A stretch of DNA of 64,000 bases from Cognatundibacterium rivi (GTDB taxonomy: Bacteria > Pseudomonadota > Gammaproteobacteria > Burkholderiales > Burkholderiaceae_D): assembly GCF_018139565.1 (NCBI RefSeq), contig NZ_JAGSPK010000003.1:62001-126000 (forward strand), read 5' to 3'. Position 1 is the stretch's first letter. Every line of letters begins with the position of its first letter. A model generated the notes under the pieces. That model was not told the origin of the DNA and searched no databases. It saw only the letters and a list, made by a program, of their open reading frames with translations. Position numbers and translations under genes: made by a program. Positions 7,576 to 28,374 of the stretch are shown one piece after another.

Positions 7576-9891
7576 ATGAGCGAACAAGCGAATTTATTTG
7601 AACAAACACCGCCGCCGGGCGATGGCGAAGCACTGACGCTGGCGAGTTTCGCCGAACGTGCTTATCTTGATTACGCAATTTCCGTCGTCAAAGGACGCGC
7701 CTTACCGGACGTCTGCGATGGTCAGAAACCGGTGCAGCGCCGCATCCTGTTTGCGATGAACGAACTCGGTCTGAATTCGTCGGCCAAACCGCGTAAATCC
7801 GCTGCGGTAGTCGGTGATGTGCTCGGTAAGCTGCATCCGCATGGCGATCAGTCGGTGTATGACGCGCTGGTGCGGATGGCGCAGGATTTTTCGCTGCGTT
7901 ATCCACTGATTGATGGGCAAGGTAACTTCGGCTCACGTGATGGCGACGGCGCGGCGGCGATGCGTTACACCGAAGCGCGCCTGACGCCGATCGCCAAATT
8001 ACTGATGGATGAAATCGATCAGGGTACCGTCGATTTTCAGCCGAATTATGACGGCACCACCGAAGAGCCGAAGCTACTGCCAGCGCGCTTGCCTATGGTG
8101 TTACTGAATGGCGCATCCGGTATTGCGGTCGGTCTGGCCACCGAAATTCCTTCGCATAATCTGACCGAAGTTGCGAAGGCTGCTGTCGCGCTGATCCGCA
8201 ACCCGGCCATGAAACAGGCCGAGCTGATGGAATATATCCCCGGCCCGGATTTCCCCGGCGGCGGACAAATCATTACACCGGCATCGGCAATTGCCGAGAT
8301 GTATGCCAGTGGTCGCGGCAGCATGAAAGTGCGGGCACGCTGGAAGATAGAAGACATGGCGCGCGGTCAGTGGCAAGCGGTCGTGACCGAATTGCCGCCG
8401 GGCGTGTCGTCGCAAAAAGTGCTGGAAGAAATCGAAGAGCTGACCAATCCAAAAATCAAAACCGGTAAAAAAACCTTGTCGCCGGAACAGGTCGCGTTAA
8501 AACAAGTGATCTTATCGGTGCTCGATACTGTGCGTGACGAATCGGGCAAAGATGCGCCTGTGCGTCTGGTGCTGGAACCAAAATCGAAAAATCAGGATCA
8601 GGCCGAGTTCATGCAGATGTTGCTCGCGCATACGTCACTGGAAACGTCGGCGTCGATGAACCTGGTGATGATCGGTGGCGATGGCCGTCCGCGTCAGAAA
8701 GGTCTGCTCGATATCCTCAGCGAATGGATTGCGTTCCGTTTCACGACCGTCACACGTCGCACGCAATTCCGTCTGAAAAAAGTCGATGACCGTATTCATA
8801 TACTCGAAGGTCGCGAAGCCGTTTTACTGAATATTGATGAAGTGATCCGCATCATCCGCGAGTCAGATGAGCCGAAACCCGCACTGATACAGGCTTTCCG
8901 CTTATCTGACCGGCAGGCGGAAGATATCCTGGAAATCCGTTTGCGTCAGTTAGCGAGGCTGGAAGCGATTAAAATTCAACAAGAGCTGGCAGAATTGCGT
9001 AAAGAAAAAGCAGGCTTGCATGACTTGCTGGACAATCCGGCGTCGATGAAGAAAACGCTGATAAAAGAAATCGAAGCGGATGCAAAACAATACGGTGATA
9101 CACGCCGCACGCTGATCGAAGAAGCAGTCCGTGCGTCGGTAGAGCAGAAAGTCGTCGATGAGCCGGTCACGGTCGTCATCTCAGAAAAAGGCTGGGTACG
9201 CGCCCGCACTGGTCACGGGCATGAAGCCAGTCAGTTCACTTTCAAGGCGGGCGACAGCCTGTATGGCACGTTTGAATGTCGTACGGTCGATCATTTACTG
9301 GTGTTCGGCTCGAATGGCAGAGTCTATTCTGTCCCTGTCTCCGCCCTGCCCGGCGCGCGTGGCGATGGCGTACCGATTACCACCCTGATCGATCTCGCAG
9401 CCGGCACCAAGATTCTGCATTACTTCGCCGGTAACAATGAAATCGGTTTATTACTGGCATCGGATGCTGGTTATGGCTTCACCGCCAAAGTGGGCGACAT
9501 GGTTGGTCGTATGAAGGCTGGCAAAGCCTTTATGACGCTGGAAGAAAAGGATTTACCGCTGCCGCCCGCGGTCATCAGCGAAGATGCCAGCGCGATTGCC
9601 TGTTTATCTGGCAATGGCCGTTTGCTGGTCTTTGGTCTGAATGAAATCAAGCAATTATCGAGCGGTGGACGTGGCGTAATTCTGATGGAACTCGAAGACA
9701 AAGAGGTGCTGCTCGCAGCACAGGCAATCAGCCAGAAAGGTGTCAGAGTAACGGGAACCGGACGCGGCGGCAAAGCGCAGGAAGTGAATCTGAGCGCTAA
9801 CGCCCTGTCTGTCCACATCAACAAACGCGCCCGTAAAGGTAAGCCGCTGGAGGTAAAAATTAAGGCCAGCAGTCTGCAGAAACTGAGTTAA
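7576..9891 (+). CDS. parC: DNA topoisomerase IV subunit A
   Basis: DNA cleavage and religation subunit of topoisomerase IV, 771 residues. The breakage-reunion domain shows [30 protein letters not shown] and [11 protein letters not shown] with catalytic Tyr131. A long coiled-coil region (about 420-510) is followed by a C-terminal beta-pinwheel with repeated GxxG blades ([19 protein letters not shown]). At the position of E. coli ParC Ser80 there is Gln92 and at Glu84 an Asp96. It forms an operon with parE and ends at a terminator. Confidence 0.95.
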
Positions 9892-23653: not shown

Positions 23654-23703
23654 ACTACACGCTCCCTACCCTGTCAGCCTCAGAGAAGAAGTGAAAACTG
23701 ACG

Positions 23704-23737
23704 AAAAAAAGCAGCACAAAAAAATTGTGCTGCTTTT
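23704..23737. terminator. Bidirectional terminator between DUF3820 gene and the borosin operon
   Basis: AAAAAAAGCAGCACAA pairs with TTGTGCTGCTTTTTT around an A-run. It ends the plus-strand genes and, on the minus strand, the borosin methyltransferase transcript. Confidence 0.9.
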
Positions 23738-24580
23738 TTATTTCAGTAAAACCTGTACAAGTAAAGGCCATGCCACCCGGGAATCGGATAAGGCTCTTAA
23801 CTGATCGACGATTTCCTGATCAATCTGCATCTTGTTTGCCGCCGGAATCACCAGTGTGGTGATCTGTTTGAGTGCCGCCTGCGGCAATTCACAGAGACGG
23901 ATTTTATCCGCTCTGGTCTGCTCCAACGGGTGCGTCGCGGCCTCATACAAAATCACCTCATGATCAGGTGAATATGTTTTCATGAGCTTATTCACGATAA
24001 TCTGTAAATGCGCTGGTTCTGTCTCAAAACGTTTGAGTGTCAGATCGCCAGCAATACCGATCTGCCACAAAACCAGCAAAGCCGTCGGATCGATCTGACG
24101 CTGATAAATCATAAATTGCGTAGCTTCCATCGACTGCATACCGAAAGTACCTGGGTCTATTCCCAGATCGGCGACCAGACTATCCAAGGCAGAAATCCCC
24201 GGCTCCATATGCGCTTCAAAGCCTTCTTGCCGTGCATCCGCAATCGCCATGTGAGAAATGCAGGCAAAAATACCGGGATGCCCGTAAAAAGCGGCGCAGA
24301 CTTTTTTCCCTTGCCGGACTTCATGCAAAATCGTATCAGCCATACGCCGGTAAGTATCCCGCCGGGTCTTACCGTCAACTTTCGTGTCGTCGTAGTGATC
24401 TAATAAACAGACATACTCTTTTGCCACACCTTGCAGCCATTTGCGTGTGAACATGTTAGGGACGGCAGCGATCACCACATCAAATGATTCGATATAACTT
24501 TTGGCCAAGGGCGTCAATTGTCCCGCCATACGCATGCCAGTGCCGACACAAACTAATTTCCCTGCTTTTTTATTTAACAT
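23738..24580 (-). CDS. Split-borosin peptide backbone N-methyltransferase (SonM-like)
   Basis: A 280-residue SAM-dependent methyltransferase of the tetrapyrrole methylase fold. It matches the borosin family that methylates backbone amides of a ribosomal peptide (OphMA in fungi, SonM in Shewanella) rather than cobalamin or siroheme enzymes. Visible marks are KLVCVGTGMRMAGQLT (8-23), HYDDTKVDGKTRRDTY with Tyr63, Arg73/74 and Tyr77 in the place of the catalytic Tyr-Arg-Tyr set, FYGHPGIFACISHMAI (98-113, SAM site), MEPGISALDSLVADLGIDPG and LLVLWQIGIAGD. No precursor is fused to its C-terminus, so it is the split type. It is the third gene of an operon with the precursor (26364-26579) and a GGDEF protein, 6 bp after the latter. 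Confidence 0.9.
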   Translation of the reverse strand: MLNKKAGKLVCVGTGMRMAGQLTPLAKSYIESFDVVIAAVPNMFTRKWLQGVAKEYVCLLDHYDDTKVDGKTRRDTYRRMADTILHEVRQGKKVCAAFYGHPGIFACISHMAIADARQEGFEAHMEPGISALDSLVADLGIDPGTFGMQSMEATQFMIYQRQIDPTALLVLWQIGIAGDLTLKRFETEPAHLQIIVNKLMKTYSPDHEVILYEAATHPLEQTRADKIRLCELPQAALKQITTLVIPAANKMQIDQEIVDQLRALSDSRVAWPLLVQVLLK

Positions 24581-24586
24581 TGAATT

Positions 24587-26338
24587 CTATGAAAATACGG
24601 AAACGCGATTACGTCCATCTGCTTTGGATTGATACAGCGCTTTATCCGCCGCTTGCATCAGTTCCTGGAAATTAGTGATGCCGGTAGTGTTCATCGTCAT
24701 TGTCGCGAGGCCAAAACTTGCACTTAAAGGAAAATGGATGCCACGGGATTCGGTATCAATCGTAGCAATGGCATGTCGACAACGTTCTGCAAGTTGCAAA
24801 CCGATTTCCTGTTCCGCCGCGGGCAAAAAAATAGCAAACTCCTCGCCGCCAATACGCCCAAAAACATCACCTTTACGCAATACACCGGCAACAGCCTGAC
24901 TCACAGTTTTCAATACCCAGTCACCAGTCGGGTGACCAAAACTGTCATTCACATTTTTGAAAAAATCCATATCAAACATGATCAGGCTGACGGCTGAGGT
25001 ACGATATTTAACGCCAGCCTCAGCTGAACTCATGAAGTGCGAACGATTGCTGATCTGCGTCAGCCCATCTAGTTCTGCATGGCGTTGAAAAATATTTTTC
25101 TGTCTGATAACTTTCCACAACCAGAGGCCAAGCACACAAATAAAACACAGCACCAAGGCGATGATCAGCAATAGATTCTGATTGCTCTTCTTCTCTAATT
25201 TTTTTTCAACATCGAGAATTTTGTTCTTTTGTTCGAGTAAAACCATTTGATTGGCTTTATCCTGAATCTCGAACTTAACACGCTGGTAGGCCAGGTTTTT
25301 CTGCAACTGTTGATCAAGCAGCTTATTTTTTAAAGTCAGCGCCGTATCGGCATACTCCAGTGCTGAGAAATACTGCCCCTGTGATCGCTTGATATCTGCC
25401 ATAATTTCACTGGCTTTTTCCAATAACAAAACGACATTTTCTTTTTTTGCCCGGGCATATGCCAGTAAACCATATGACTCAGCCTGCTGTGTATTTCCCA
25501 TTTTTAGGTAAGCTTTGGCAAGTGCCGTTTCCAGCTGTATCAAGTAACCAGAACTCTGACTATTTTTTTTCAACTCTTCAAGCAAAGGTATTCCAGCTTT
25601 GATACCCAGAGCATAATTACCTGATTCAATCACATCAATATTGGCGATGGTTTTAATCAAAAGCGAAATAAAAAATCGCCCTTGAGCATCACAGGTCGTA
25701 ATAGCAACGTTTAACAACTCATTGGCTTTTTGACTACGACCCATTAAAAAATTGATTTCAAGCTGATTGCCAATCCCAAGACAAGTCGCTGGCCCCGGAA
25801 TTTCATCACGATCCAGTTCCGGCAAGCGGCGTGCATATTCCATCGATTCATCATACGCGCGCAATGAATTCAGAATAGTAATTGCTGATTGCAAAACATC
25901 AATCTTGGCATTTTTATTTTTCAGACCGGGTAGCATTACTATGCTCTGATTCATATAACTCAGCGCATTTTCATACTCACCCAAATTGATGTAGCCATCC
26001 GATAGCTGATATAAAAATCGGGCGCGATAGTCGATATCAGAAATATCTGAGATGACAGACTGAACAAATTCCACCCGCTCGCGGTGTTTTCCGAGAAAAC
26101 CGAGCGCCGATGCACGTAAAAGCAGAAATTTATTTTTTTGTTCGGTAGAGAATGTCGCCTGCTGCAACACCAGCTCATCTAACTTCCTGAGCGATTCATC
26201 TGGAGAATTGAGTAAACTCCGCGAGACATTTTTTAAAAGCGCATCGTTTTTTTCATCCGTACCAGCCTGACTGTATTGAGGCAGAAATGCGATGAGCAGC
26301 ATTGCGCATAATAACAAAAACTTTTTGAATGCCTTCAT
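24587..26338 (-). CDS. TPR-transmembrane-GGDEF diguanylate cyclase inside the borosin operon
   Basis: A 583-residue membrane protein. A signal peptide (MKAFKKFLLL..., cleavage near 26) leads into a periplasmic region of tetratricopeptide-like helices (about 30-370). A coiled coil and one membrane helix (NLLLIIALVLCFICVLGLW, about 393-412) follow. The cytoplasmic GGDEF domain has IGGEEFAIF and the I-site RKGD five residues before it, so it is probably active and product-inhibited. Start is ATG 26338, where the signal peptide begins; a longer frame to 26419 overlaps the precursor gene. Gaps of 25 and 6 bp to its neighbours indicate one operon. What its periplasmic part senses is unknown. Confidence 0.85.
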   Translation of the reverse strand: MKAFKKFLLLCAMLLIAFLPQYSQAGTDEKNDALLKNVSRSLLNSPDESLRKLDELVLQQATFSTEQKNKFLLLRASALGFLGKHRERVEFVQSVISDISDIDYRARFLYQLSDGYINLGEYENALSYMNQSIVMLPGLKNKNAKIDVLQSAITILNSLRAYDESMEYARRLPELDRDEIPGPATCLGIGNQLEINFLMGRSQKANELLNVAITTCDAQGRFFISLLIKTIANIDVIESGNYALGIKAGIPLLEELKKNSQSSGYLIQLETALAKAYLKMGNTQQAESYGLLAYARAKKENVVLLLEKASEIMADIKRSQGQYFSALEYADTALTLKNKLLDQQLQKNLAYQRVKFEIQDKANQMVLLEQKNKILDVEKKLEKKSNQNLLLIIALVLCFICVLGLWLWKVIRQKNIFQRHAELDGLTQISNRSHFMSSAEAGVKYRTSAVSLIMFDMDFFKNVNDSFGHPTGDWVLKTVSQAVAGVLRKGDVFGRIGGEEFAIFLPAAEQEIGLQLAERCRHAIATIDTESRGIHFPLSASFGLATMTMNTTGITNFQELMQAADKALYQSKADGRNRVSVFS

Positions 26339-26363
26339 TATTACGCGCACAACGTTAAACACA

Positions 26364-26579
26364 TCAGTGGGTTGTCTCAGTAGACTGGAGCGTGGGCAGG
26401 TTTGCCTCATCAATACCAATTAAATTTGCCACCCTCGATTTATCGCCTGAAATCAGGGCATTTTTTTCTTCCTCATTCAGACCAAAACTATCCATTGCAG
26501 CGACAGGGTTGGCTGCAAATGCTTCACGTGCGTCAGCGTTTTGATCCAGATAATTCAGATAGTCCAACAGTTTTGACAT
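26364..26579 (-). CDS. Split-borosin precursor peptide (SonA-like)
   Basis: A 71-residue peptide. Residues 1-50 form a helical leader with DYLNYLDQN, FAANPVAAMDSFGL, NEEEKNALISGD: the NP..AM..FGL..EE..A..SGD pattern of the borosin binding domain seen in Shewanella SonA, which has the same total length and start. The remaining C-terminal part, ending LPTLQSTETTH, has no such pattern and is the likely core that the downstream methyltransferase modifies. It is the first gene of precursor-GGDEF-methyltransferase. The ribosome binding site is weak (TGAGAAA). The leader also resembles Nif11-type leaders, but the SonM-like partner makes borosin the better reading. Confidence 0.85.
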   Translation of the reverse strand: MSKLLDYLNYLDQNADAREAFAANPVAAMDSFGLNEEEKNALISGDKSRVANLIGIDEANLPTLQSTETTH

Positions 26580-26667: not shown

Positions 26668-28374
26668 TTAGATTATCCGCAACACCGGATAACAACGCCA
26701 TTCTGGTTCTCTGAAGCGCTCGCAATGCGTGAAAATAAAATCGAGTACCGCTTCCTGATTGTTCAGCAACTCAGGATGATTGCTTTTCCATGTCTCAAAT
26801 AAGGCGCGGGTTACGGGTTCATCGCGCAGAATTTCTGCTGCGGTATCTTCGAAGACGTAATCGGAATAGGCTTCTTTTTTCTCCAGCACACTGTTAAAGA
26901 AACCCCAGCGGAAGAAGCTGTCATGCGCTTGTGGCTCCAGCGTTTCCATCACATACCGTGCCTGTGGCTGATTAAGATCAATCAGGTAGTCACCAGGTAC
27001 AGCCTGCACTGTCTGCTGACGGCTGACGAGCGTCAACTGGTCATAAAACATGTGCCCCTCATACGCATGTGGACGCGACTGCACAGATTCAATCTGGTAA
27101 GTCTGCACCTCAAACACCTGCGCTTTTTCGATGCGCAGCATCTGCACACCATTCCATTGCAGTCGCTCGATCACGGCGCGCCATGCTTGTGGCAACAGAT
27201 AGGCTTTGGGCCGCGTAACAGTTACATCACTGACAAAGTGATTGAAATACGGAATCGCTTTTTCCCACGGCTGACTGCGGTCATAGCCTAAACGTGTGTA
27301 ATGACCAATCACGCTGGGACGATATACCGCCTGATAACCTTTAAAGAGAAAGCTGGAAGCACGGTTACGATCGACCTTCCAGCTGACTGCCGTATGAGTG
27401 CTGCTTGCTGCAGCCTGTCTGGCCTGTGCCCTCAGCGTTTGTATCTGTGCGGCATTTGCAATGGTGAAGTCCAGCACGGTTTCGACCAGTGCCCGCATCG
27501 ATGCGTAGCGGTCAGCGAACGGTTTCAGCATGTGCGTCTCTGGCATAAAACCTATCGTGTGATGCAGCGCGGCGTAACCTGTGGAAAAGCGCGGCGTTTC
27601 CAAAAAATCTTCTATGCCGTGATCCGGAATATCCTGCACAGGGTTCACATACGGGCATGTTGGCCAGCCGCGTTCGTTCATCTGTGTATAAATTGCAGGT
27701 AACATCGTCTCGCGCAAAAAGCCGCCGAGCGCACTCCCCAGCTTATCGGCCTGAGTCTGTATCAGTGTCATGGTGTACTGGTAATCTGCGCCGTTCGACG
27801 TATGCGTATCGACCATCACATCCGGGCTCCAGGCACTGAAGAAACGGTTAAAGGCCTGCGCATTCAGGCTGTCGCATTTGATGAAATCACGATTCAGATC
27901 AAGATGCAGGCTGTTACCGCGAAAGCCGAACATTTCCGGGCCATCCTGATTTACGCGCGATGTATTCTGACGATTGACGCAGCCATCAACGTTATATACG
28001 GGGATAAACAAAAACACCGTTCGTCCTAATGCTGCCAGACGCTCCGGCTGCAGACAAAAGTCACGCACCAACGCCATACAACCGTCAATGCCTTCCGGCT
28101 CTCCGGGATGAATACCATTGTTATTAAAAAAGACGGGGCGGCCTTCACTTTGTAATTGTTTACGATCAAACACGCCATCCGCCGTCACGACACCCGCATG
28201 AATAGGTCTTCCTGCATCGGATCTACCGATCTCAAAAAACTGTAAGGTTCGGGGAAATTCAACAGCAAGTCGCTGATAGAATTGTATGCACTCATCCCAA
28301 CTGGCTGTCTGATTCTGATTACCAGTTTCATAGGGAGTTAAGAACTGCGGTGCAAGCGTAGGCGTCGTGCTCAT
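26668..28374 (-). CDS. M14 family zinc carboxypeptidase-like protein
   Basis: A 568-residue cytoplasmic metallopeptidase of the M14 family; no signal peptide is seen. NNGIHPGEPEG gives zinc ligands His89 and Glu92, LDLNRDF an Arg near 162, VDTHTSNG the third ligand His191, and FMPETH a plausible catalytic Glu279. The C-terminal 280 residues are outside the peptidase core. It lies 88 bp upstream of the borosin precursor on the same strand, so it may be functionally linked to core release, or merely a neighbour. It is divergent from the aldolase gene. Confidence 0.8.
   Translation of the reverse strand: MSTTPTLAPQFLTPYETGNQNQTASWDECIQFYQRLAVEFPRTLQFFEIGRSDAGRPIHAGVVTADGVFDRKQLQSEGRPVFFNNNGIHPGEPEGIDGCMALVRDFCLQPERLAALGRTVFLFIPVYNVDGCVNRQNTSRVNQDGPEMFGFRGNSLHLDLNRDFIKCDSLNAQAFNRFFSAWSPDVMVDTHTSNGADYQYTMTLIQTQADKLGSALGGFLRETMLPAIYTQMNERGWPTCPYVNPVQDIPDHGIEDFLETPRFSTGYAALHHTIGFMPETHMLKPFADRYASMRALVETVLDFTIANAAQIQTLRAQARQAAASSTHTAVSWKVDRNRASSFLFKGYQAVYRPSVIGHYTRLGYDRSQPWEKAIPYFNHFVSDVTVTRPKAYLLPQAWRAVIERLQWNGVQMLRIEKAQVFEVQTYQIESVQSRPHAYEGHMFYDQLTLVSRQQTVQAVPGDYLIDLNQPQARYVMETLEPQAHDSFFRWGFFNSVLEKKEAYSDYVFEDTAAEILRDEPVTRALFETWKSNHPELLNNQEAVLDFIFTHCERFREPEWRCYPVLRII

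Follow-up and report, generated by a model that had tools for sequence, protein, structure and literature searches.

The window analysed here, a stretch of 64,000 nucleotides from Cognatundibacterium rivi, carries on its minus strand three genes in the order precursor peptide, TPR-TM-GGDEF protein and methyltransferase, separated by gaps of 25 and 6 bp. All three open reading frames and both gaps lie where a preliminary description, made from the sequence alone, had placed them. The features are as follows.

26364..26579, minus strand: split-borosin precursor peptide, 71 amino acids (SonA homology, leader HMM, Pfam LigA)
24587..26338, minus strand: receptor-like diguanylate cyclase (TPR-TM-GGDEF), 583 amino acids from ATG (Pfam, hydropathy, motifs, AlphaFold2)
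25304..26266, minus strand: TPR sensor domain of the cyclase (alignment of relatives, fold similarity)
23738..24580, minus strand: SonM-type peptide backbone alpha-N-methyltransferase, 280 amino acids (phmmer, active-site residues)
23705..23739, minus strand: strong intrinsic terminator that reaches into the stop codon of the methyltransferase gene (folding energy −23.2 kcal/mol, z −6.41, T-rich)

The list of open reading frames also offers a longer version of the TPR-TM-GGDEF protein, from a TTG at 26419 that overlaps the precursor. Two Rfam matches to mir-15 at 23696–23748, covering both strands, are an artefact that arises from the terminator, a near-perfect palindrome. Rfam returned no match to a c-di-GMP riboswitch in the operon, a promoter scan gave fewer sites than chance, and comparison with PHROGs found no phage relatives. 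On the opposite strand, directly past the terminator, are genes for QSregVF_b (PF12843; 23402–23653) and DUF2242 (PF10001; 22750–23415); we found no evidence tying either to the operon. Just upstream of the operon, an M14 carboxypeptidase gene (26668–28374) was considered as a part of the system and rejected as a genus-wide gene that is not specific to borosin carriers: it was found in 20 of 21 Undibacterium genomes (16 of 16 good ones), and its linkage to borosin loci is confined to Undibacterium-type loci.

Methyltransferase and precursor peptide

The methyltransferase (METHYLTRANSFERASE) matches SonM (7ltc_A) with a phmmer E-value of 1.7e-77 and 49.6% identity over 254 residues, and fungal dbOphM with an E-value of 1.1e-46. 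At E ≤ 0.01, the PDB matches are SonM and fungal borosin enzymes only, with no other methylase type among them. SonM residues Y58, R67, Y71 and Y93 correspond to Y63, R73, Y77 and Y99 of the window enzyme, and F99, E146, W166 and Q167 to F105, E152, W172 and Q173; SonM R68 is also kept. The roles of these active-site residues were described by Miller et al. 2021 (PMC8429565). The closest named relative of the enzyme is that of U. aquatile (94%). Its best NCBIfam score is 52.6 bits (YabN), against a cut-off of 525, the NCBIfam precorrin models reach at most 26 bits, against cut-offs of at least 163, and the match to Pfam TP_methylase reflects a shared superfamily. Given the SonM match, the kept residues and the precorrin and YabN scores below cut-off, the enzyme groups with SonM and not with the precorrin or RsmI methylases, as had been proposed. 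Membership in the type IV split borosins is secure on these sequence comparisons, and methylation activity is predicted.

The precursor matches SonA over residues 1–55 (E 4.3e-6), which bears out the SonA-like leader first attributed to this 71-residue peptide. It also matches a leader HMM (E 2e-24), a model made from relatives and trained on related members, and Pfam LigA (26.9 bits; cut-off, 25.3), the annotation that SonA likewise has in the PDB. The leader, or borosin-binding domain, occupies about residues 1–55, and the putative linker and core about residues 56–71 (IDEANLPTLQSTETTH). This C-terminal part differs among species around an LPxIxV pattern, and, Shewanella apart, the majority of the gammaproteobacterial relatives carry a Cys/Pro core followed by an acidic tail. 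SonA is methylated at L63 and I65 (PMC8429565); the equivalent region of the window precursor reads L61-P-T-L-Q-S66. Because P62 cannot be methylated and the SonA sites fall only near T63/L64/Q65, the methylation sites of the window precursor are not safely predictable. A second precursor, more diverged than the first, lies between the cyclase and methyltransferase genes in several loci from Undibacterium and Solimicrobium (L025:8585-9004, L026:8632-8856, L036:8624-8890 and L024:8647-8976); in the window this interval is just 6 bp.

This locus adds a new member to the type IV split borosins. It shares with SonM/SonA of Shewanella oneidensis (PMC8429565) a separate methyltransferase and precursor, a homologous leader and the same active site, but differs in having D179 where SonM has E173, in its core (LPTLQSTETTH-like, compared with YLVISHGNGD-like in SonA) and in its gene order, which is precursor–cyclase–methyltransferase here and methyltransferase–precursor–cyclase in Shewanella. 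The fungal fused borosins (OphMA and dbOphMA) have a homologous methyltransferase domain (E 1e-46), but there the precursor and enzyme form one protein, whereas they are separate in the window.

Recurrence of the gene set in relatives

Alignment of the methyltransferase was used to fetch a first sample of 80 named loci, the best-scoring matches, from Undibacterium, Solimicrobium, Rhodoferax, Shewanella, Rheinheimera, Dyella, Rhodanobacter, Lysobacter and other genera. A leader-type precursor is present in all 80. This SonA-type leader adjoining the enzyme, the PDB matches confined to borosin enzymes and the borosin active-site residues, all kept, already refute the scarcely credible alternative of an ordinary tetrapyrrole methylase (precorrin, RsmI or YabN type) beside an unrelated small open reading frame, for which the common TP_methylase superfamily and the weak NCBIfam precorrin and YabN matches, far under their cut-offs, could be cited.

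The precursor lies directly 5′ of a TPR-GGDEF gene in 78 of the 80 loci, usually with a gap of 0–50 bp, and 79 carry a GGDEF gene on the same strand, no more than 4 kb from the methyltransferase. Farther out, the flanks of these loci contain 7 GGDEF genes in 715 kb, a density equal to that of the window's own genome (39 in 3.9 Mb). Because the 80 loci are the best-scoring matches, a second, phylum-wide sample of 15 fetched loci outside the own genome was drawn; a TPR receptor lies beside the methyltransferase in 14 of them (12 GGDEF and 2 kinase), and the exception is a 1174-amino-acid protein that is apparently fused. The same holds for 39 of 40 loci in a third sample, from one gammaproteobacterial family (33 GGDEF and 6 kinase), although the three samples partly overlap and the loci are non-independent through relatedness. 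As the cassette recurs across genera, chance is ruled out. The three genes together make up a genuine borosin set of the bacterial kind.

The preliminary description held a c-di-GMP enzyme in such an operon to be unusual, a claim overturned by the 78 named loci that have one and by Shewanella itself. In Shewanella sp. ANA-3, the enzyme is 99% identical to SonM, and directly downstream come a SonA-type precursor and, after it, a TPR-GGDEF gene; close relatives of the best-studied bacterial borosin therefore carry this protein. Borosin clusters of this class in the Beta- and Gammaproteobacteria normally have a TPR-GGDEF gene as their third gene. What remains special about the betaproteobacterial version is not the presence of the cyclase but the gene order: in the neighbourhood survey, which had been suggested at the outset, precursor–cyclase–methyltransferase recurs in betaproteobacterial loci, whereas most gammaproteobacterial loci have methyltransferase–precursor–cyclase. 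The adjacency of precursor and cyclase is kept in both orders. Two precursor–receptor pairs accompany one methyltransferase at L031, L039, L041, L071, L074 and L096.

The shewasin-type, protease-linked gammaproteobacterial clusters have the same methyltransferase–precursor–TPR cyclase core. They differ in the addition of a pepsin-like aspartyl protease gene (27 sampled gammaproteobacterial loci) and a GNAT acetyltransferase gene (49 gammaproteobacterial loci, mostly directly flanking the methyltransferase gene, for example L058:8334-8891 and L069:9782-10321), neither of which lies beside the window operon. The GNAT neighbour suggests further modification of the peptide by acetylation.

The TPR protein and its output domains

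Pfam and transmembrane prediction agree with the first account of a TPR-TM-GGDEF protein encoded between substrate and modifying enzyme. The protein has a Sec-type signal peptide (residues 1–25), a predicted periplasmic TPR superhelix (25–345), a long linking helix with one transmembrane segment at about 388–411 (hydropathy) and a GGDEF domain (422–578; Pfam E 2.7e-39, 135 bits, with TPR matches as well). This domain has a GGEEF active site and an RKGD I-site (LRKGDVFGRIGGEEF; motif at residue 497), and the presence of both the GG[DE]EF active site and the RxxD inhibitory site marks the protein, by motif, as a predicted diguanylate cyclase. Pfam identified no HTH in the cyclase. The TPR residues C186 and C216 are invariant in an alignment of 66 cyclase-type relatives and likely form a periplasmic disulfide. 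At L095:9478-11316 and L134:9729-11582, the TPR-GGDEF proteins beside precursors have weak GGDEF matches (45 and 72 bits), and that of L095 lacks a recognizable GGDEF motif; in proteins of this type, the receptor may persist without cyclase activity.

AlphaFold2 predicted the full cyclase with a mean pLDDT of 93.7. Because a Foldseek search with the full cyclase gave only GGDEF-containing structures among the matches listed, the TPR part was predicted alone (pLDDT 94.6, pTM 0.90). This model resembles Rap with its pheromone (Z 24.4 over 312 residues, 4.8 Å), NprR (Z 22.8), AimR (Z 20.6) and PlcR–PapR (Z 18.4), and also APC5 and APPBP2 (Z 25–27) and LGN (about 20); the scores of MalT and of eukaryotic TPR proteins equal or exceed those of the Rap, NprR, AimR and PlcR structures. 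Since many TPR proteins of other function score equally high, the modelled likeness is weak evidence of peptide sensing, a lead to be followed. The resemblance to the RRNPP receptors (Rap, NprR, PlcR and AimR), a TPR superhelix of similar fold beside a small peptide gene, would be one of working and not of sequence membership. RRNPP receptors are cytoplasmic, whereas the window protein has a predicted signal peptide and transmembrane segment; the borosin-linked TPR proteins further differ in their GGDEF or kinase output, and in a peptide predicted to be a backbone-methylated RiPP.

The TPR sensor is found in 9 of 9 genomes of the window's bacterial family that have a close methyltransferase, and in 0 of 186 that do not. 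No second copy of the sensor occurs in the own genome, despite its 39 GGDEF domains; one orphan TPR-GGDEF copy in another genome has no precursor that we could find beside it. Strong TPR matches number 22 in 40 Alteromonadaceae-type genomes; 21 of them are no farther than 5 kb from a methyltransferase, and the 20 genomes that lack a methyltransferase have no strong match.

At eight loci of the wider sample, a gene for a TPR-TM-HisKA-HATPase-REC protein replaces TPR-GGDEF directly 3′ of a short-peptide gene, and at L173–L175 the next gene after the TPR-histidine kinase encodes a REC-GGDEF regulator. The peptides at L173–L177 (about 8845–9181) form a distinct short family of the type MDNLSRFYLEL...NIGRxGRTVTH, encoded between a diverged borosin-type methyltransferase and the TPR-histidine kinase. 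The leader HMM misses these peptides and the label of precursor rests on their position; they are possibly an undescribed type of borosin precursor. The invariant cysteines are absent from both kinase-type sensors that were aligned (n = 2), so the kinase-type TPR may be only distantly related to the cyclase-type TPR. It is the sensor, and not the output domain, that stays beside the precursor.

A proposed peptide-receptor reading and its alternatives

We propose, with a probability of roughly 0.55, that this type IV split-borosin cassette acts as a peptide–receptor module, in which the peptide would be a ligand for the periplasmic TPR receptor encoded next to it and c-di-GMP would be the output. 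The SonM-type enzyme would bind the leader of the 71-amino-acid precursor and methylate backbone amides in its C-terminal core, after which a protease would release the core peptide. The mature N-methylated peptide would enter the periplasm passively, helped by its N-methylation, or through an unlinked transporter, and dock in the groove of the TPR domain of the adjacent protein. Docking would alter the linking helix and hence the GGDEF activity that sets c-di-GMP; activation by the ligand, and with it the direction of the effect, is our inference. In kinase-type loci, a phosphorelay would be the output in place of c-di-GMP. The proposal builds on the genes and their kept linkage, the co-occurrence of sensor and methyltransferase, the intact cyclase motifs, the predicted TPR fold and the swap of output domains behind the TPR sensor. 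Apart from linkage the support is modest, and comes from the likeness of the TPR model to pheromone receptors and from a correlation between core and TPR distances. Among relatives, the peptide gene regularly has a signalling enzyme for a partner, an arrangement which suggests that borosin peptides act as cell signals.

c-di-GMP commonly controls the production of secreted products. It is conceivable, if rather unlikely, that the cyclase is instead an input or co-ordination device, in which the TPR domain senses some different signal from the envelope and c-di-GMP controls whether the borosin is made or used; the borosin itself would then work elsewhere, as an antimicrobial, metal-binding or surface peptide, for instance. 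Such a device would be in keeping with that commonplace form of control and predicts the same gene linkage, but it fits poorly with precursor–receptor pairs that duplicate together beside a single methyltransferase, and with loci at which the output changes to a kinase while the TPR sensor stays, which make the sensor, and not c-di-GMP synthesis, the lasting neighbour of the precursor.

Cleavage and export are the difficult steps of the peptide–receptor proposal. We found no transporter or signal peptide that would account for a cytoplasmic peptide reaching a periplasmic domain. Shewasin A, in the work of Lee et al. in 2024, reportedly cleaves a borosin precursor. A search for PF00026 pepsin-like proteases found none in the own Undibacterium genome and was positive in two control genomes. 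Shewasin D, of the same family as the cluster protease, is mainly cytoplasmic (PMC4814920), and cleavage by such an enzyme would leave the product in the cytoplasm. The missing export route and the near-zero gaps between precursor and cyclase genes in many loci would suit an improbable arrangement in which the full-length precursor or its leader binds the cyclase on the cytoplasmic side, perhaps at its GGDEF or coiled-coil part, and regulates it there. The TPR domain is predicted to be periplasmic, however, and core distance follows TPR distance (0.24 when controlled for methyltransferase and GGDEF distances; 0 of 200 permutations) and not GGDEF distance (−0.01), with leader distance adding nothing. 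The core–TPR correlation vanishes (−0.02) among closely related pairs, and may reflect residual phylogeny.

TPR domains often serve as scaffolds, and the joint gain and loss of sensor and methyltransferase would also be expected if the TPR protein provided immunity, scaffolding or help with maturation for a bioactive borosin, its GGDEF or kinase domain merely reporting peptide load. We consider this quite improbable, given the cyclase motifs that are intact in the window and in nearly all relatives, and the output swaps, which point to signalling as the selected function.

No paper in the literature that we searched, which did not extend to Crone 2023 or to the principal studies of genome mining (Imani 2022, Cho 2022 and Lee 2024), joins borosins with diguanylate cyclases. 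Provisionally, the linkage to a TPR receptor may be new, the kinase swap in particular; an earlier mention of the TPR-GGDEF neighbour is possible. We regard as evenly balanced the broader proposition that many bacterial borosins are signalling peptides, N-methylated ligands of periplasmic TPR receptors that are encoded next to the precursors. TPR-GGDEF receptors would feed c-di-GMP and TPR-histidine kinases, sometimes together with a REC-GGDEF regulator, would feed a phosphorelay, a Gram-negative, transmembrane counterpart of Rap, NprR and AimR sensing. SonM and SonA of Shewanella have already been purified and crystallized, and the receptor-like gene beside nearly every sampled precursor makes the question of what bacterial borosins do directly testable in that genus. 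If true, the proposition would add a peptide signalling route into c-di-GMP, and a class of signals with protease-resistant, membrane-permeable chemistry.
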